Source: Bacillota bacterium (GTDB lineage: Bacteria; Bacillota; SHA-98; UBA4971). Taken from it: a stretch of DNA of 59,201 bases. Each line of letters begins with the position of its first letter. Positions within the stretch are counted from its first letter, which is position 1. Shown here one piece after another: positions 6,305 to 17,252 of this stretch. The DNA lies in NCBI GenBank assembly GCA_012516125.1, contig JAAYXB010000021.1, forward strand, positions 1-59,201. Reading direction: 5' to 3'. The position numbers were made by a program, and so were the translations under genes. Under the pieces are notes generated by a model. The model made no database searches. It was not told where the DNA came from and was given only the letters and a program-made list of their open reading frames with translations.

Positions 6305-6766
6305 ATGGACATAGTGGTCGATGCCAGTGTAGTTCTCGCGGCGTGCCTGCCCGACGAATCGACACCTCAGGCCCAACGGTTGATGAGAGATTACGCTCTG
6401 GGCACGGTCGACCTTTGGGCCCCGAGGCTCTTACTTCTCGAGCTCTCGAATGCATGTCTCGTGGCTGCGAGGCGCGGACGGCTTGAACAGAGTGTGCTTG
6501 ATGGTCTAGCCACGTACATTGCGGCGCTGCAAATAAACTGGGTCAACGTAGAGGAACAGCCCAAGCGAATACTCTCTGTCGCCAGGCAGCTCGGTCTTAC
6601 AGCTTACGACACTGCTTACATCGTCGCGGCTCAGGTGAGAAACGACTGCATGCTGGTTACAGCGGATAAGCGGATGTTCGTGTCTGCCAAAGAGGCTTTC
6701 CCTTTCGTCGTTCTCCTGGAAGACTACAAGGGTGCCTCCGGTACTCGCTCACAGCCTCCCAACTAA
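6305..6766 (+). CDS. VapC-family PIN ribonuclease toxin
   Basis: This 153-residue PIN-domain protein carries the four acidic residues of the Mg-dependent nuclease site: D6 (VVDAS), E46 (LLELSNA), D102 (TAYDTAY) and D121 (VTADKR). VapC toxins cleave tRNA or rRNA to arrest growth until the antitoxin rebinds; the target here is unknown. The stop codon TAA at 6764-6766 overlaps by two bases the edge of the 132-bp repeat that follows. Confidence 0.93.
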   Translation: MDIVVDASVVLAACLPDESTPQAQRLMRDYALGTVDLWAPRLLLLELSNACLVAARRGRLEQSVLDGLATYIAALQINWVNVEEQPKRILSVARQLGLTAYDTAYIVAAQVRNDCMLVTADKRMFVSAKEAFPFVVLLEDYKGASGTRSQPPN

Positions 6767-7204: not shown

Positions 7205-7351
7205 GAAACGCGAGGAACGGCGCCGCGGTATCGCGAAAAATGGTATGCGAGGCAGGGAACGGCAGGGCTTTGGAGAAGACAGTCTCGTCGCCGACATGGG
7301 GACACGCACTGCCGAGCACGTTTCCTGGATGGTGAGGAGGTGCCAGGCAAG

Positions 7352-8104
7352 TTGGACTGGAGCAGTGCTGTCAGTATGCTCAGAACGCTTACCGCGTCCG
7401 GCGTAATCACAGGGGCAGCTCTGGCCGTGGCTGCCCTGATCTTGTTCCTTGCGCTGGGGAGGCAAAGGCTTGCCAGTACCCAGGTTGCCGGCGGAGTGCT
7501 CGGGTTCGCGCTTGGTGCGGCACTGTTCGCGCCGTCGATAGCGGAGGTCCAAGTGCCGCTGCAGTCCCTCGCGACCCGCTGGGCGATGGGCCATCTCGCC
7601 ACCGCCAACAGCCTCGTCCTATCCATCCCCGCCATACTCCTCACGGGCATCGTCCAGGAGCCAGCCAAACTCCTTGCCGCCGGCCTTGGGATGTGGACGG
7701 TCAGGCGCGGGACACGGCGGGCGGCACCTACGATCGGCGCTCTCGCCGGGGCCGGGTACGGGGGCATGGAGGCTGCGATCATTCTGTCGTATGCCCTAAC
7801 CATAGTGCCACCCGGGGTATTTCCGTGGTTGGCCACGGTTGAGCGGGCAAGTGCCGTCATATTCCATTTGAGCCTCCCCGGCATCGTGATGTTCTGGTGG
7901 GCGCGAGGCGCTGCGCGCGGGCTCCTTGGCCTCCTCGGAGCCGTGCTGGCACACGCCGCCCTTGATTCGCTGCCCGTCCTACTCGGGATGGGGTTGGTTG
8001 GGGTCGCCTGTGCCGAGGTTATCGTGGGGATACTATCTCTTGCGCTCTTCGCGTACTTGATATTCCTGGTGAGAGGGGTGAGACGTGGTGAAGAGAACGA
8101 TTAG
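7352..8104 (+). CDS. YhfC/PrsW-like intramembrane protease
   Basis: This 250-residue protein has about seven membrane segments. Conserved polar motifs lie within them: QEPAKLLAAG, GYGGMEAAI, a His in VIFHLSLPG and HAALDSLPVLLG. These fit the YhfC branch of the PrsW/CPBP-like membrane metalloproteases, where Glu and His side chains form the site. GGTGAGGAGG at 7331-7340 points to the TTG at 7352; GTG at 7340 is an alternative. Its last 20 bases overlap the lipoprotein gene that follows, so the two are probably translated together. The substrate is unknown. Confidence 0.7.
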   Translation: MDWSSAVSMLRTLTASGVITGAALAVAALILFLALGRQRLASTQVAGGVLGFALGAALFAPSIAEVQVPLQSLATRWAMGHLATANSLVLSIPAILLTGIVQEPAKLLAAGLGMWTVRRGTRRAAPTIGALAGAGYGGMEAAIILSYALTIVPPGVFPWLATVERASAVIFHLSLPGIVMFWWARGAARGLLGLLGAVLAHAALDSLPVLLGMGLVGVACAEVIVGILSLALFAYLIFLVRGVRRGEEND

Positions 8105-8828: not shown

Positions 8829-8998
8829 GAATACGCCGACGCTTGCCTGCCCAGCGCACTTACGCATGGACGTAACGTATGCCACCACTATGACGACCGG
8901 CAACACAGACACACGAACGCCGCGGCTTGGTCCCCCCTCAGCCCTGTGCGGGCCTGCGTGGCTACACATCGCGTATACACATCAATTACATATAATAC

Positions 8999-9027
8999 TT
9001 GATACATCGCAGTGGGTGCGATATGAT
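8999..9027 (+). promoter_or_regulatory. promoter with inverted repeat in the spacer
   Basis: TTGATA at 8999-9004 and TATGAT at 9022-9027 are 17 bases apart. The spacer and the edge of the -10 box hold a perfect inverted repeat, ATCGCA (9006-9011) and TGCGAT (9017-9022). A repressor bound there would block the polymerase. The CopG-type antitoxin encoded just downstream is the natural candidate. Confidence 0.65.
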
Positions 9028-9075
9028 AGGTCTGGAGCTAATCATCACGGGAACGAGAAGGAGGTCGGAGCCGCT

Positions 9076-9420
9076 GTGGATCCGGCCGCCATGGCAGGCC
9101 GATCACAGCGCTTGAGTATGGCACGCGAGAAGGACCTGGTCCGCGTGAACGTGATGCTTTCAAGGCATGACCTGGCGGAGCTTGACCGCATGGCTGAGGT
9201 GTGGGGGCTTTCGCGTAGCGCCCTGCTGCGCGACTTAGTCTCCCAGGCAGCCCGAAAGGAGCGAACGAGAGATGGCGCACTGCCACCGCTCCCTGAGCTT
9301 GGGATTCCCGTTCGGCGCATGACATTCGAGCAAGCTCTTCAGGTAGCCCGCAGCGCGGCAGCGAGGCTCAAAGGATTCGATGGGGTTGCAGAAATACGAA
9401 GGTGGCGAGAGCAGCGATGA
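9076..9420 (+). CDS. ribbon-helix-helix (CopG-like) antitoxin
   Basis: The core VRVNVMLSRHDLAELDRMAE, then WGLSRSALLRDLV, is a ribbon-helix-helix DNA-binding domain, with a beta strand, helix A and helix B in about 45 residues. The C-terminal half (about 75-114) would bind the toxin. GTG at 9076 follows AAGGAGG; ATG at 9091 and 9118 are alternatives. The stop TGA at 9418-9420 overlaps the toxin's ATG at 9417, giving translational coupling. It probably represses the promoter at 8999-9027. Confidence 0.85.
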   Translation: MDPAAMAGRSQRLSMAREKDLVRVNVMLSRHDLAELDRMAEVWGLSRSALLRDLVSQAARKERTRDGALPPLPELGIPVRRMTFEQALQVARSAAARLKGFDGVAEIRRWREQR

Positions 9421-10031
9421 ATGAGGGGCGTTCCGCAGTGTCGGTCAGCAACCCCGGTACACGCTGGGAGATCCCGCCCGCAAGCCCCCGAAGCGACGCG
9501 GAGGACGTACCTGACGCCGTCTGGGCTGCCCCGTCGCTGGTCGCGCCGGTCTACGTGGTCGATGCGAGCATCGGGGTAAAGTGGTTCGTGGATGAGGAAG
9601 AATCACGGCTTGCGGAGCGTCTCCTCATAGAAGCTCACGAGGGACGAAGGCGGCTCATGGCACCTTCGCTCTTCTGGTACGAAGTAGCAAACGTTCTCCG
9701 GCGATCCCCAGAGAGCGATGAGGATCTCTTTCGTGACCTCGAGGCGCTAGCCGTATGCCCGGTCGAGCGTCTCGACCTCTCGCCCGCCGATCTGCCTGTC
9801 CTGGGAGCGCTCGCACGCAGGACAAAGCTCACGGTGTACGATGCTGTCTACCTCATGCTCAGCTCAAAGTGGGCAGTCCCCCTGCTGACCCAGGACCGCG
9901 AGCTTGCCGCGGCGTGCGCCGGCCTCACGCCAGTGCTCACCCTCAAGCAGCTCTTCGGGAGCGTGCTCATGGAAACAACCGAGCCGTACATTGCGAGAGG
10001 CATGAAGGAGCGAGAAGACGAGCGTAGCTGA
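9417..10031 (+). CDS. VapC-family PIN toxin with N-terminal extension
   Basis: The PIN domain begins near residue 45. Acidic residues D49 (VVDAS), E89 (WYEVANVL), D142 (VYDAVY) and D160 (TQDREL) match the VapC nuclease site. The first 44 residues are extra and low in structure; an internal start is possible but no ribosome-binding site supports one. The ATG overlaps the antitoxin stop by four bases. The RNA target is unknown. This is the second toxin pair in 4 kb. Confidence 0.88.
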   Translation: MNEGRSAVSVSNPGTRWEIPPASPRSDAEDVPDAVWAAPSLVAPVYVVDASIGVKWFVDEEESRLAERLLIEAHEGRRRLMAPSLFWYEVANVLRRSPESDEDLFRDLEALAVCPVERLDLSPADLPVLGALARRTKLTVYDAVYLMLSSKWAVPLLTQDRELAAACAGLTPVLTLKQLFGSVLMETTEPYIARGMKEREDERS

Positions 10032-10104
10032 AAGTCCTGAATCCTTTGCTCGCCGAGCGTTCTCCGCATGAATTTGTTCGCCCTGCCAATAGGTGCAACC
10101 AGTC

Positions 10105-11160
10105 CTATTCCCCCTCGGAGATTCCCAGCATGCTTTGACGCAATTTGGTGGCCCACTCGTTCAGCATTTGCACGCGCTGCCTCAACGTGTCACCAGTGAG
10201 AGTGCTGTCTTCGGTAGTACCATACCGCCATATGCTTCTTATGAGCTCGTTGTATGCTCTCAAGAACTCCGGATCGATTTCTCGTCCCGTCCAATCGGAT
10301 AGCCAGCTCAATGACAACAAATCAACCCGAAGCCCCTCACGAATGATGAGAGAGTCGACGAAGCGCTCATCGACTTCGACTGTACGAAGGACCTCGCGCC
10401 ACTCCTCTTCTAAGCGGTCAAGCGAGGTGCGCGTGCAGTCTTCTATCAAAGAGAAGAGACTCTCTCCAGTGTCCCTCGCTGACGAAGGGGCACAACCCGG
10501 TAGATTCCTGAAGATACGAAGTAGAGTGTGGCGCCCGTGTCTCTGTTCTATGAAACTGAGGAATGAAGCGTTGCCGTTGTACATCACAAACGCGCCGAAT
10601 CCCGTGCCCCCCCAGCGCATCATCAGCAGCTGCCTCAGAGATGGCAGCCGTCCTGAGGCGAGTAAGCCAGCAGCTACAAAGTGATCAGGGGCCAAGATGG
10701 CTCGGTTCCCGACGAGTGTTGCCATACCTTCGTGTACAGATGGTGGAGCCGCTCCCCCGAAACTCTCGTACGCGATTAGGTGCACGAATTCGTGAGCGAA
10801 CCGGCCTTTATAGCGCTGCGCTTCCTCCACAGTCAGTGGCGGGGCTGCGTGTATGATCACCCGGCCTGGCTTCGCAAACGCGGGCACGCCTCCTGACGCA
10901 GAGCCGACCCACGAGATCGTTACCGGTTTGTGGAGCGTATGTTCGAGAAAACCTTCCGCGAAGCGTACATCATCAGTGGCCACCGTCAGTAGGGTGGACA
11001 CGACGTCGCCAGCCACGGTTGTCCCCGGCGGGAAGTCCAACACAACAACCCCGTTCCCAATGAGCGTTGACGAGCCTAAGACGGGTGCACTCTGTAACAA
11101 CGCGCAGACCACCGCAGTCAACGCCAGTATCCGCACCCTGACTACGCGCGTAACCCACAT
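10105..11160 (-). CDS. secreted peptidase MA-like metalloprotease, paralogue A
   Basis: The product has 351 residues. ATG 11160 follows GAAAGGAGG and a second GGAGG. After a signal peptide (to about 30), the catalytic region has H113-E114-F-V-H117 and a downstream HEGMA with E134, the HExxH...E arrangement of gluzincin zinc proteases (peptidase MA-like). The C-terminal half (about 190-351) is helical and charged and has no domain I know. The nearby genes at 11830 and 12945 are clear paralogues, sharing a FLSFI(E)...HGRHTL-type stretch and a LSxWLSDWxGxEIDPEF-type motif. The substrate is unknown. Confidence 0.75.
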   Translation of the reverse strand: MWVTRVVRVRILALTAVVCALLQSAPVLGSSTLIGNGVVVLDFPPGTTVAGDVVSTLLTVATDDVRFAEGFLEHTLHKPVTISWVGSASGGVPAFAKPGRVIIHAAPPLTVEEAQRYKGRFAHEFVHLIAYESFGGAAPPSVHEGMATLVGNRAILAPDHFVAAGLLASGRLPSLRQLLMMRWGGTGFGAFVMYNGNASFLSFIEQRHGRHTLLRIFRNLPGCAPSSARDTGESLFSLIEDCTRTSLDRLEEEWREVLRTVEVDERFVDSLIIREGLRVDLLSLSWLSDWTGREIDPEFLRAYNELIRSIWRYGTTEDSTLTGDTLRQRVQMLNEWATKLRQSMLGISEGE

Positions 11161-11713
11161 TGGCCTCCATGGCCTCCTTTCCCGCGTATATGTGAACGCC
11201 GAGGGGCCCACCAGACGAGCGGGTCAATCAGCCCGGTTCCAGCAACGCACTGTAACCAACTCCGGGCGCGCGCACCATTGCACCCATGGAGCCTGGTCGT
11301 GGCGCCACGCGCTACCACTCGCATGGGTCGACATTCTCGAGCGACAGAAGGATCGTGTGGCTTTCCATCTCTAACAGATCGTTCATGCAACACGCCCCGG
11401 GCAAGCTGGCAAGCGCAAACGTACCTTCACCTGGAGAGGAGCCGGAAGCAGTCCGATCCTCTCGCTCGTCCCAGAGCCGTGGTACATGTCCGCATGTCGT
11501 CTAGTGCTCCGGGACGCCGCTGGCGCTAGCCAACCGGTCAGGGTTGAACCCAATGCGGCGGTTGCCGAGCCGAGAGATGCAAGGGACAACACAGACCCTT
11601 GTCGACTTGGCACGTGGAATGGCCGGAATCGAAGCGCCTGCACCTTCGTATTATGCAGCTGGTTGGGACAGACCTCGTGCTCCGAATGTGGGCGAAACCA
11701 ACGGACCCCCGCT
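11161..11713. other. gap between paralogues A and B
   Basis: No convincing gene is visible in these 550 bases apart from the promoter region expected for paralogue A. Open frames on both strands have shuffled composition and no ribosome-binding site. Confidence 0.4.
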
Positions 11714-11857
11714 CTAGTACTTACCGACGCTGGCGTCTATCCTTGCCCCATTGAACCCCCACCGAAACACCGCCAGCCCAATTGGAAGGGTTAGTGCAGT
11801 GAGGGCCAGCAGGGCCAGGGCCTGGCTTCTCACCTCCCCAAGCCCGGCATGAACCAT
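11714..11857 (-). CDS. possible 47-residue membrane protein
   Basis: An ATG at 11857 lies inside the end of paralogue B, overlapping it by 28 bases in another frame. The product, opening MVHAGLGEVRSQALALLALT, has one membrane helix (about 11-31), an Arg/Trp step and a short polar tail. Position and hydrophobicity suggest translational coupling to the protease gene. No family is recognised and the ribosome-binding site is weak. Confidence 0.35.
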   Translation of the reverse strand: MVHAGLGEVRSQALALLALTALTLPIGLAVFRWGFNGARIDASVGKY

Positions 11858-12948
11858 GATGGTCTCATGCAGCGCGGTGCCGACATGGCGCGGCGTATCT
11901 CCTCAGCCCATTCGCAAAGCCTCCTGATGCGGCGCGACAATTCCTCGCGACTTACAGGTTCCCCCCGGCCGTACCGGTCTATGTCAGCCACAACGGATTG
12001 CAGTTCCTCCTGGAATGCTGGGTCTATCTCCACACCTAGATGGTCGCTCAACAGACGCAACCGGAACAGCCCAGCATGGCCAAGTTCATCCCACAACTCG
12101 ATGGCAGCAATGAACCGCTCGCTTACCTCGGTAGCACGGAGCGCCTGACGCCACTTTAACTCAAGTTCCTCCAGGGAGGTTGCGGTACACTCTTCAATGA
12201 GAGAGAAGAGTTTCGCGGTGCTGGCGCTGGCTGTATAGGGAGGGACATTGTTGTATATACGAATGAGGGTGTCGTGGCCAAACTTCTCGTATATGAAGCC
12301 CAGAAAAGATGGGGTGCAACTGTACAGGAGGACAACCCGTTCGGACTCCGAGAGCGACAGTCCTGTTGTAAGCAATGTGCGCAAAGACGGAAGCCTGCCC
12401 ATTGCGTGCAGCGCTGCTGCAGTATCGTGGGGCGGGAGTTGTGAGCGCAGTATCTCTACGAGTTGCGCAAAACCCTCACTCATCGAGGCAAATGAATGAT
12501 CGCCCCACACGCCGTAACTGTGCAGGTGCACGAGTTCGTGAGTGGCAGTGGTTATGCAGCGTCGTCTCGCCTCCTCAAGAGTCATTGGAGGTCCCAGCTC
12601 GTCGATGATGTGGTGAGGAGGGCTTGCCCTCGGCACAGGGAAGAACCTCTTGCTCCCCGTGAACACGTACTTTACGGGCTTGGGAAGGCAGCTTCCGAAA
12701 AACCCCTCGACGTACTCGATAGAGTCCGTTAAGCATTCGAGGAATGCCCTTTGTATGTCAACGGGAACGTTGACGTCCCCAGGAAAATGGACGATCACCC
12801 AGTCGTTGGATACCTCGACTGGTGAAGGTTGCCCAGCCGCCCATGCAGAACACCCGAAGAGGCCGAAGAGGTTGATAAGAAGCAGAATCCATCCGGCAGC
12901 CCTCAGTACTCTAGCGCTCAGACAGCAGCACCTCCTGGTTTCCCTCAT
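11830..12948 (-). CDS. secreted peptidase MA-like metalloprotease, paralogue B
   Basis: This 372-residue paralogue has a Cys/Arg-rich N-terminus, a hydrophobic segment (about 17-37) ending LFGLFGCSAWA (possible lipobox), and the site H127-E128-L-V-H131 with E148 in MSEGFAQL. SLPKPVKY and EIDPAFQEEL-like motifs are shared with paralogues A and C. Its ATG overlaps the stop of paralogue C by four bases, so the two form an operon. It is probably an exported or anchored zinc protease; the target is unknown. Confidence 0.75.
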   Translation of the reverse strand: MRETRRCCCLSARVLRAAGWILLLINLFGLFGCSAWAAGQPSPVEVSNDWVIVHFPGDVNVPVDIQRAFLECLTDSIEYVEGFFGSCLPKPVKYVFTGSKRFFPVPRASPPHHIIDELGPPMTLEEARRRCITTATHELVHLHSYGVWGDHSFASMSEGFAQLVEILRSQLPPHDTAAALHAMGRLPSLRTLLTTGLSLSESERVVLLYSCTPSFLGFIYEKFGHDTLIRIYNNVPPYTASASTAKLFSLIEECTATSLEELELKWRQALRATEVSERFIAAIELWDELGHAGLFRLRLLSDHLGVEIDPAFQEELQSVVADIDRYGRGEPVSREELSRRIRRLCEWAEEIRRAMSAPRCMRPSWFMPGLGR

Positions 12949-13997
12949 GCGGGCGAACCCGTTGTGTGGCGATCAGAGATTCCTCGACGTATCTCCTCGG
13001 CCCACTTGACGATCTGCTCAATGCGCGCCCTCAGTTCTTCCTCGTTCAAGGACTCATTATTGACGTAGCTCCATATGTCTGAGTTAAGGCTCCGTACCTC
13101 AGCCATGAACGCAGGGTCGATCTCCACGTCGAGCCACTCACATTGCCTGACCAGACGGAGGAGGTCGGCCTCATCATACTCCTTGTACAACCGGAGTGCT
13201 GTAAGGTATCGGGGATGCACTTGGATAGCTCGCAACACCTTGTGCCATTCGACCTCAAGTTGAGCTATCGGCGTAGAAGTGCACTTCTCAACGAGGGATA
13301 TCAGGTTGTCACTAAACCTCCCTTCGCCACATATCTCAGCCAGACCTCTATGGAGACGTATGACGCTGCGGTGGCCAAACCGTTCGTAGAGGAACCCTAA
13401 GAACGAAGAGTTGCCCCGCGACGCCACAAGGTACCGAAACCGAGAGATCTGGCTCGACTCAAGCAACAAAGTCCGTAGAGGTGGGAGCTCACCTAGCGCC
13501 AAGAGACCCGAGGCTTCATAATGCAGCGGACGACCGAGATACAGATTCTGAACCAACCATGCAAAGCCCTCGTCCATGGAATCAACTGCGCAGAGGTGCC
13601 ATATGGCATGGTTGACCAGATGAACAACCTCGTGGGGGTTGAAGGGCCTACAGAGACTTGGATCTTCGATGCTCGTCGGCACGGGCCATGGGTCTCGCAC
13701 TATGTTCGGGTAGCCGGCTGACCCAATGCCCCAATACCGACTCTCTATGAACTGATACTCTATCCGGCGAGGGAAAGCGTAGCCGAAGAAATCCTCCACG
13801 TAGCGAATGGACTCGGTCACTCGTTGAAGTAAGAGTTCCTGGACCTCCCAAGGAACGTCAATGCCATCGGGAAAACGAATCACTACGGTATCATTGGCGG
13901 TCTCCTTCGAAGATGCACCAGCTGGCGGTGAACCCGCCAAGAACCACGTGACTATAGCAAGCAAGACAACCGTTTTCACAGCCGAGTGGGTCCGCAA
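12945..13997 (-). CDS. secreted peptidase MA-like metalloprotease, paralogue C
   Basis: The product has 350 residues. TTG 13997 follows CGGAGGTGA; a longer frame begins at 14033. The signal peptide (to about 28) ends PPAGASS. The site is H122-E123-V-V-H126, with E143 in MDEGFAWL as likely third zinc ligand. The mature protein opens DTVVIRFPDGIDVPWEVQ, close to paralogue B (DWVIVHFPGDVNVPVDIQ). It is the first gene of the B-C operon. The DNA here is less GC-rich than the flanking housekeeping genes, as in acquired islands. Confidence 0.75.
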   Translation of the reverse strand: MRTHSAVKTVVLLAIVTWFLAGSPPAGASSKETANDTVVIRFPDGIDVPWEVQELLLQRVTESIRYVEDFFGYAFPRRIEYQFIESRYWGIGSAGYPNIVRDPWPVPTSIEDPSLCRPFNPHEVVHLVNHAIWHLCAVDSMDEGFAWLVQNLYLGRPLHYEASGLLALGELPPLRTLLLESSQISRFRYLVASRGNSSFLGFLYERFGHRSVIRLHRGLAEICGEGRFSDNLISLVEKCTSTPIAQLEVEWHKVLRAIQVHPRYLTALRLYKEYDEADLLRLVRQCEWLDVEIDPAFMAEVRSLNSDIWSYVNNESLNEEELRARIEQIVKWAEEIRRGISDRHTTGSPA

Positions 13998-14033
13998 GCT
14001 GCTGTCACCTCCGAACTGACTCCTCACGATCAA

Positions 14034-14215
14034 TCAAGCGCAGTCCCCCTGAGTCGGTCGGGCCCATTCTTGACGAGGGCGTGGCGGCAGATGTCGCTGA
14101 GGCCGGAGGTCTCCGCGACGAGGGAGATGCCATACTCCTCCACGTAGTGGTTCTTCGCCACGTCCCCGGTGATTACTTCAGGCCGTAATCTGCTTCTCCT
14201 GGCGTGTCGACATGG
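14034..14215 (-). pseudogene. possible gene remnant of unknown family
   Basis: An open frame without a start signal reads PEVITGDVAKNHYVEEYGIS, then VAETSGLSDICRHALVKNG, before TGA at 14034. The composition is protein-like and unlike random GC-rich frames, but upstream the reading is broken by stops. I do not recognise the family. Confidence 0.3.
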
Positions 14216-14736
14216 TCAGCCCACCGGCTTCCGGGCGTGCTCCGAAGAGCCTCTTATCAAGCTTCTGCTCCCCAATGTGGAAGGCCCGTTCTCCAGAGCG
14301 AGCCTCGTCGTTCTCTCGCCCACGTCTTACTCATATTCGCCCAGGCGTGTCTCCCGTCGCTCAGGCTAGAACCCATCGACTCCTCAGCATGCATCCCCTG
14401 CCGGGTGAACACCTGAGTCGACCGCGCCGCGGCCCTCACCAATAGTGAGCGTCCCTATCGCAGAGACGTCCGCCAAAGGCGCTGTGCCTTATAGCGTGTC
14501 GGAAGCCGCCGAAGAAGGCGGATCTTCTGGAACCCGTCTCCGAATGGACGTTCGTCGCAGCTACGGTCCAGTGCTTGGACCCAAGGACAGGGACAAACCC
14601 TTTGTGCGGAATCTTGGCAAGGATGTTTGTGGAAGCAGGGCCAGGAAGAGCCGTGTTGCGGGCGAAGGATAGCGAAGCCTTACCCGGCCATGTGTCGTCA
14701 CCACTATGAAACGCACAGTAGCCCTTGCCAGACCCA
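14216..14736. other. intergenic stretch without recognised genes
   Basis: Both strands are broken by stops, and the open frames present lack start signals and domain motifs. It separates the protease island from the EamA gene and may contain decayed coding DNA. Confidence 0.35.
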
Positions 14737-15699
14737 TCACGGGTGGCGGCCTACATCCCGCCCGTCCCCCGGGCGCTTCCGTGGAAACTCCACTTCGGAG
14801 GCAAGCATGCCTGCGAGGATGAGCGCGGCGCCGACCTGCTGGGCGGCTGTCAGCCGCTCGCCGAGGAGCAGCCACCCGAAGAGCCCTGCGAATACAGGCT
14901 CCGTCGCAAACACGATGGCCACGTGGGTGGGGCTGGTGAACCTCTGGGCGACGTTCTGGACGAAGAACGCCAGCGTCGTCCCGAAGACCGCGAGAAACGC
15001 GACCCCGCCGAGATCTCGCACCGAAACGGGCATCGCCACGTGTTGGCCGAGCCCCAGCACTCGAACGCCGAGGACCACGAAAGCCGCGACGGAGACAGTG
15101 GCAAGCTGGACCGTCACGAGCAATGGCACATCGAACATGGGAGCGAACTTGCCCACCGCCACGATGTGAAGGCCGAATGCCACCGCTCCCACAAGAACGA
15201 GGAGATCGCCTATCTCGAAGAGTGGCCCTCCTCCCAGCTTAAGCGTGAGAAGGGCAAGGCCCACGGTGGCGCACGTTACCCCTACGATGGCCGCCGGCTC
15301 CGGCGGCCTCCTGAGGATGATCGTTGACAGGATCGGGACGAGCACCACCGATAGCCCTGTGATGAACCCCGCCTTGGACGCGCTCGTGTACTGGAGCCCC
15401 ATGGTCTGGAAAGCGTACCCAATGAATAGCGCGAGCCCGACCAGGACGCCTGCTCCCGCGAGCCTTGGCGTTATACGCCTGAGCCGGGGCGCGACCGCCA
15501 CCGCCATGAGCGCAGCGGCCATGAGGAAGCGCACCGCGACGAGGGCAACGGCGTCCACCCTCGCGACAATGTCCTTGACCACGACGAAGGTGGCGCCCCA
15601 GATGAGCGTCGTCACAATGAGCGATCCATCGGCAACCCATTGCCGATGGATCGGGCTTGCCCAAAATCCCTTGAAGTGCAGATATCTCATCTCCTTCAT
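14737..15699 (-). CDS. EamA/DMT-family transporter
   Basis: This 320-residue protein has ten hydrophobic segments in two EamA repeats. The first opens SLIVTTLIWGATFVVVKD and the second follows near FEIGDLLVLVGAVAFGLHIV. GEVLTAAQQ-type (LGERLTAAQQVGAALILAG) is the usual EamA C-terminal motif. Such proteins export amino acids or other small metabolites; the substrate cannot be told. ATG 15699 is chosen, but TTG 15708 overlaps the gatB stop and would also work. It is probably the last gene of the gatCAB unit. Confidence 0.88.
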   Translation of the reverse strand: MKEMRYLHFKGFWASPIHRQWVADGSLIVTTLIWGATFVVVKDIVARVDAVALVAVRFLMAAALMAVAVAPRLRRITPRLAGAGVLVGLALFIGYAFQTMGLQYTSASKAGFITGLSVVLVPILSTIILRRPPEPAAIVGVTCATVGLALLTLKLGGGPLFEIGDLLVLVGAVAFGLHIVAVGKFAPMFDVPLLVTVQLATVSVAAFVVLGVRVLGLGQHVAMPVSVRDLGGVAFLAVFGTTLAFFVQNVAQRFTSPTHVAIVFATEPVFAGLFGWLLLGERLTAAQQVGAALILAGMLASEVEFPRKRPGDGRDVGRHP

Positions 15700-15704
15700 C
15701 CCGC

Positions 15705-17252
15705 TCAACCCGACGAAAGCCGCTCTCGAAGCAGCCTGTTCACGGCCTGCGGGTTCGCGCGTCCCCGCGTCTTCTTCATCACCTGGCCGACGAGGAAGGT
15801 GATGGCCCTGTCTTTCCCCGCGCGCACTTCGTCGGCGACATCGCGGTTTTCGGCTATGACCTCGTCAACGATCCTCGCAAGCTCGCCCTCGTCAGCTATC
15901 TGCACGAGGCCCTTCTCGGCGACCACCTGGCGAGGTTCCTTTCCTGTGGCGAACATTTCCTCGAAGACCGTCTTGGCTATCTTGCCGCTAATCGTTCCGT
16001 CATCTATCATCTTCAACATGGCCGCGAGCGCGGTCGGCGCCACGCGCACGTCGCGTATGTCAGTGCCGGTCGCGTTCATGAGCCTCGCAAGCTCGCCCAT
16101 GACCCAGTTGCTCACGGCTTTCGCATCGCCGCCGTACGCCGCGACCGCCGCCTCGAAGTAGTCCGCGAGGTCCTTCGACTCGGTCAGGATGGCCGCGTCG
16201 TAAGCGGGGAGCCCATACTCCCGAATGAACCTTTCGTGGCGCACACCCGGAAGCTCAGGGAGCGTGCTTCGCACCTCGGCCACCCATGCCTCATCGATCT
16301 CAAGCGGAACGAGGTCGGGCTCTGGGAAGTACCTGTAGTCGTCGGCCTCCTCCTTGCGCCTCATGAGCACAGTCACCTGGCGGGATTCGTCCCAGTGACG
16401 GGTCTCGCGCGTAACACGCTCGCCCCTCGCCAGGATCTCCGCCTGGCGCCTGAACTCATACGCGAGAGCCTTTTCCACGGCTCTGAAGGAGTTGAGGTTC
16501 TTGAGCTCGATGGGCGTCCCGAGCGCGGACGACCCTTTCGGCTTCACCGAGATGTTCGCATCGCACCTGAGCGAGCCTTCCTCCATCTTGCAGTCGGACA
16601 CGTCCAGGTAGCGAAGGATGCTCCGTAGCATTGAAAGATACGCGTACGCTTCCTCAGGCGACCTTAAGTCTGGCTCGCTCACGATCTCAAGGAGCGGCAC
16701 CCCGGTGCGGTTGTAGTCCTCCAGCGAGAAGCTGGACCCCGTGATGGTCCCGCTCTCGTGCACGGACTTTCCGGCGTCTTCCTCAAGGTGTACCCGCTTT
16801 ATGCGCACCCGACGCATGCCGCCGTCTACGGAGACGTCGACGTAACCGTTGGTGCCGAGAGGCAGGTCATACTGGGATATCTGGTAGTTCTTCGGTAGAT
16901 CGGGATAGAAGTAATTCTTCCTGTCAAACTTGGAGAAGCTTGCCACCTCGCAGTTCAGCGCGAGCGCTGTCTTTATTCCGAATTCCACAGCCTTGCGGTT
17001 GAGGACCGGCAACACCCCCGGAAGCCCCAGGCACACAGGGCAGGTGTGGCTGTTCGGAGGCGCATTGAACGCCGCCTGGCATCCGCAGAACAGCTTCGAT
17101 TTCGTCGAAAGCTCTACATGGACCTCAAGGCCGATCACAGGCTCGAATTCCGAGGCGCAAGCGACGGCACCGGCCCCTCCGTCTTGCGCGGGCCCGGGCC
17201 CCCCGGCCGCTTCCGCCGCCCAGGCCGTGCTCACCTTTGCCCTCTCAGGCAT
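15705..17252 (-). CDS. gatB: Asp/Glu-tRNA amidotransferase subunit B
   Basis: GatB binds misacylated Glu-tRNA(Gln) or Asp-tRNA(Asn), phosphorylates the side chain and receives ammonia from GatA. The 515-residue product has the core [13 protein letters not shown] from about residue 33, zinc-type cysteines (CGC and CPVCLGLPG), and the HLEEDAGKS and YRYFPEPDL motifs, with a C-terminal YqeY-like tail. ATG 17252 follows GGAGGTGA and overlaps the gatA stop by eight bases. A longer open frame upstream lies inside gatA and is not the gene. The order is gatC-gatA-gatB. Confidence 0.96.

Follow-up and report, generated by a model that had tools for sequence, protein, structure and literature searches.

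Peptidases of the gluzincin clan MA(E) are defined by an HExxH motif with a downstream Glu as metal ligand, a two-lobed fold, and a Tyr or His which stabilizes the transition state. Among described families of this clan, Peptidase_MA_2 (PF13485) shares the HExxH-x16-E arrangement and a similar second lobe with the products of the three genes considered here (A, B and C), although A, B and C have an additional helical tail of 80 residues. The M30 peptidase lugdulysin (7bb8) is the best structural match to the model of B and has a similar spacing between its Glu and Tyr residues, but it is only 12% identical to B, and C does not carry the Tyr. With respect to BSP (PF04450), a family of plant and bacterial peptidases, a weak likeness to A was limited to the HExxH region. 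M1 and M61 gluzincins process ribosomal peptides, and those encoded in ribosomal-peptide clusters, AplP and MfuP, use the gluzincin fold to process modified peptides (PMC10885120). In contrast to AplP and MfuP, no maturase or precursor was recognized beside A, B and C, and the three proteins are far smaller than M1 enzymes.

The window, which is the whole stretch of 59,201 nucleotides analyzed here, carries the following features at this locus.

10038-14762, strand not applicable: low-GC block, missing at the same site in genomes G001, G002 and G005
10105-11160, minus strand: gene A, predicted exported gluzincin peptidase with a likely ATG start at 11160, giving 351 residues
11714-11875, minus strand: remnant of an ABC-2 exporter permease gene (its 3' end), including a 47-codon frame at 11714-11857
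11830-12948, minus strand: gene B, predicted exported gluzincin peptidase, 372 residues from the ATG start at 12948
11883-11884, strand not applicable: point at which 193 bp have been deleted by comparison with the sister species G004
12945-13997, minus strand: gene C, predicted exported gluzincin-like peptidase, TTG start at 13997 with GGAGGTGA upstream

The initial annotation had described three paralogous secreted HExxH proteases, two of them overlapping in an operon, and the three paralogous frames and the overlap were confirmed at these coordinates. HExxH-x16-E was present in all three proteins, none of which has lost the HExxH residues (A carries HEFVH and the third Glu), and pairwise identity among them was 32-38%. 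B begins within the last codons of C, with which it shares 4 bp (ATGA), while the start of A has GGAGG close upstream of the ATG. Export-type N-termini were called by reading the sequence, and each of the three proteins appears to begin with a signal-like hydrophobic stretch. B was also considered as a lipoprotein, and this was rejected because the motif is not conserved, two species reading LFGC or FFGC and G010 reading FLGW.

No Pfam or NCBIfam family accepted A, B or C, and no Pfam match to Peptidase_MA_2 was obtained even at E 1 when nine members were scanned. Profile comparison with two Peptidase_MA_2-type proteins gave a probability of 92.5% (E 4.9e-7). The likeness of A to BSP (E 0.039, 14.2 bits) was below the cut-off of 23.8 and covered 47 residues around HExxH. 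A sequence search of the PDB returned no match for the peptidases, and the M1 motif G-x-M-E-N, which precedes HExxH, was missing from all three translations by reading.

Structure prediction had been proposed as a check for the C-terminal halves, which were said to match no known domain, and it was run on B using AlphaFold2 with an alignment of nine family members as input. The model had a mean pLDDT of 82, and in this model of B alone residues 40-275 aligned with solved gluzincin catalytic domains as one complete domain with the two-lobed thermolysin/M1-like catalytic fold. The top structural match was lugdulysin (Z 15.1, rmsd 3.4 over 216 residues), tied with M1 aminopeptidases and M9 collagenases at Z 14-15, so that the fold class is clear and the peptidase family is not. 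Foldseek with the B model returned nothing below E 0.001. Since the gluzincin fold of B is complete by residue 275 or so, the portion after HExxH would be the second lobe of the peptidase, and the C-terminal half is, in the B model, mostly this lobe followed by an extra helical tail of about 80 residues (277-356). The tail folded alone at pLDDT 91 and resembled only generic helical bundles, with a best Z of 10 to designed proteins; Foldseek gave no match for it below E 0.001, and a viral structure library gave no match below E 0.001 either.

In lugdulysin, the residues altered in entry 7bb9, E242 and Y315, lie 73 residues apart, and the distance from the HExxH Glu to a later Tyr is 71 residues in B and 70 in A. 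By alignment and spacing, this putative catalytic Tyr is present in A and B and may take the transition-state role. In both species the corresponding column of C holds Ser, and C may be weakened or altered because Ser replaces the putative catalytic Tyr. The identification of A, B and C as predicted zinc peptidases, from their sequences together with the model of B, is strong, and judged by sequence they form a single new family restricted to this lineage, which adds an unrecognized, lineage-restricted family to the gluzincin peptidases. Profile comparison also linked to A, B and C four relatives in which HExxH is changed to LEYTR or LEYSR and which are presumably inactive.

L065:6331-7614, LEYTR/LEYSR relative
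L066:11050-12294, LEYTR/LEYSR relative
L067:4200-5492, LEYTR/LEYSR relative
L058:4280-5320, LEYTR/LEYSR relative

The 47-codon frame at the end of B had been taken for a tiny membrane protein. It was found to match the C-terminal 47 residues of an intact ABC-2 permease at 81-85% identity. This permease, of 265-267 residues, has the ABC2_membrane domain and occurs elsewhere in this genome and in relatives. The DNA around the frame (11714-11875) was 86% identical to L066:2056-2217, within an intact permease gene. In the sister species G004 a scrap of the exporter ATPase gene is retained right after B; in the window, the 193-bp deletion removed DNA which included this ATPase relic, replaced the final residues of B, and fused the end of B to the permease relic. 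Given the permease identity and the deletion, the membrane frame is debris, and so is its overlap with B. The overlap itself was correctly observed, but it is a product of the deletion, and the spurious small membrane protein can be struck from consideration.

On one side of the block lies a PIN-domain gene (9402-10031), on the other a gene for an EamA-type transporter (14737-15708). Compositional analysis supported the claim that the block is less GC-rich than its surroundings, with GC of 0.55-0.57 and GC3 of 0.62-0.64 for A, B and C compared with GC3 of 0.72-0.82 for the other measured neighbor genes, the exception being a flanking antitoxin-like gene at 0.60. In three of five congeners (G001, G002 and G005) the block was absent from the same site, and the sequence runs from the EamA gene into other conserved genes; one-to-one orthologs are thus not found at this place in all relatives. 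The missing stretch in these genomes also takes in the flanking RHH-PIN pair, and G003 gives no verdict at the site owing to a contig break. From the absence in three of five congeners and the low GC, insertion of the block in two sister species is the most likely history, the alternative being loss from the other congeners. Searches for mobile relatives gave no tblastn match for A in phages, no tblastn match for B in plasmids, and no relative of B among the viral contigs scanned.

Presence and absence were examined in genomes which were mostly drafts with contig breaks, and occurrence was patchy. Matches were obtained in 5 of 13 genomes of the family, the same five being the only ones among 17 of the class, and a sample of 398 genomes of the phylum added strong relatives in just two more genomes, from another class, which share the helical tail. 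Full-length genes were found only in G000, G004 (sister record JACIXY010000034.1, a Bacillota MAG) and G010, where they lie at a contig edge which truncates C; G011 holds part of B, and G001 holds relics only. Orthologs of A were 99% identical in G004 and 61% in G010, and the gene order is A-B-C in G010 versus C-B-A in the window. In the tree, A, B and C each formed a strongly supported clade which included G010, and the paralogs therefore predate the split of the two genera. The peptidases are 56-64% identical to those of G010 whereas GatB is 71% identical, which does not favor recent transfer between the two genera and fits better with old shared descent and loss. Relative to G010, dN/dS was 0.15-0.24 for A, B and C, consistent with purifying selection. 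For A, dN/dS was about 0.11-0.15. Between the sister species, A and C were under purifying selection and B had a dN/dS of about 0.7. With such deep, separately conserved lineages it is plausible that A, B and C have different targets.

Relics of B or C were detected in three species, at G000:C57 and C75, G001:C8, C13 and C25, and G004:C34 and C70; in some of them the order is B then C, matching G010. The decayed pieces consist chiefly of the last 50-75 codons, and some are chimeras of B and C.

L025:6212-6620, decayed B/C piece
L026:5456-5787, decayed B/C piece
L066:4318-4490, decayed B/C piece
L069:4865-5037, decayed B/C piece
L068:4475-4693, decayed B/C piece
L070:7409-7740, decayed B/C piece
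L071:6270-6473, decayed B/C piece

A standalone function for these dispersed pieces was considered, as the tail folds alone and several frames are open. It was set aside since stops occur in those at G001:C8 and G004:C34 and the pieces represent either 3' ends or chimeras of B and C; the pieces held too few changes for an estimate of selection, and the C57/C70 pair was left out. What emerges is three old paralogs kept together through rearrangement while copies elsewhere decay.

At two of these loci, G001:C8 and G004:C34, the B relic has a CPBP-type protease gene on one side and, on the other, an intact pair of exporter ATPase and permease genes facing an ECF sigma/anti-sigma operon. At G000:C45 and G001:C25 this pair comes after a radical SAM/SPASM protein, which at G001:C25 is truncated by the contig end.

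L109:3639-6772 (G000:C45), radical SAM/SPASM gene, then ABC-2 ATPase and permease

The best NCBIfam match of the G000:C45 radical SAM protein was the Clo7bot maturase model, under the strict cut-off; a literature search on Clo7bot found nothing, and upstream of the gene no precursor peptide stood out convincingly. Among the ORFs around the block, neither a RiPP precursor nor a maturase was recognized, just exporter debris. DNA downstream of A shares 36 bp with the end of the radical SAM gene, a match too short to be relied upon.

With a probability of roughly 40%, we propose that A, B and C, exported across the membrane as zinc-dependent gluzincin-type peptidases, would cut peptides on its outer side, and that the likeliest targets would be peptides which are handled by an ABC-2 exporter like the one found beside the radical SAM/SPASM maturase elsewhere in the genome, cleavage serving either to trim or to clear what is exported. 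The exporter debris directly behind B and the B relic upstream of an intact ATPase-permease pair at two loci argue for this role, and together with the M1/M61 precedent (PMC10885120) the exporter and maturase neighbors favor trimming or clearing, with feeding as the main rival. On the other hand, the link of the exporter to A, B and C rests on relics, the full-length copies in G010 have other neighbors, and the high dN/dS of B and the missing Tyr of C count against it. If the radical SAM link is true, processing or clearance of modified peptides would be a candidate role for the peptidases in a little-known group of Bacillota. Somewhat doubtful is the use of the same enzymes in general extracellular digestion, breaking down environmental protein and peptides for import as food, as the suggestion of nutrient capture implied. 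The export-type N-termini would suit it, and its only support from gene neighbors comes from one distant genus: relatives in G234 and G160 lie near a gene for an oligopeptide-type binding protein (SBP_bac_5), and in G160 transporter permease genes were also seen. This context is one locus common to two congeneric genomes, however, and neither the window nor G010 has an importer next to the genes; loss in most relatives also argues against a core feeding function. Both trimming or clearing and feeding are readings which we infer from neighboring genes, some of them relics.

The block may instead be declining and dispensable, the remnant of a once larger set with little present function. Several loci with B and C relics, exporter debris inside the block, the recent dN/dS and replaced C-terminus of B and the absent Tyr of C all point that way, but three open frames with metal ligands kept in two species, and purifying selection on A and C, make this unlikely. 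Trimming or clearing by A, B and C could also be the extracellular arm of an undescribed peptide system in this class, in which radical-SAM maturase loci and peptidase loci share exporter cassettes and catalytically dead members bind the product instead; at G001:C8 (L066) an inactive-type member does sit directly behind a PqqD-radical-SAM-SPASM gene (9314-11110), yet a system of this extent is decidedly improbable. Least probable is an attack of the exported peptidases on neighboring bacteria. Divergent exported peptidases in tandem within a patchy block, with an adjoining RHH-PIN pair, would be in keeping with such competition, but the small membrane frame, which could be mistaken for an immunity gene, is what remains of a permease, the peptidases showed no targeting or cell-wall-binding domain, their fold matches are to peptidases generally, and nothing was found to indicate killing or competition by the proteins themselves.

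Additional genes were observed near the peptidase loci. A PIN-domain-like gene (6305-6766, by eye) and the RHH-PIN pair (8866-10031) lie within 4 kb of each other in the window, and PIN genes also neighbor the peptidase loci of G010 and G234:C117; a partnership was rejected, as PIN genes adjoin three loci yet this genome holds 19. At 7340-8104 of the window, a polytopic membrane protein with no Pfam or NCBIfam match at the thresholds applied appeared PrsW-like by eye (QEPAKL motif). At L056:5287-7880 (G234:C117), a distant family member is split between two frames, and the gene just upstream of it, in the same orientation, encodes an S41-type peptidase.
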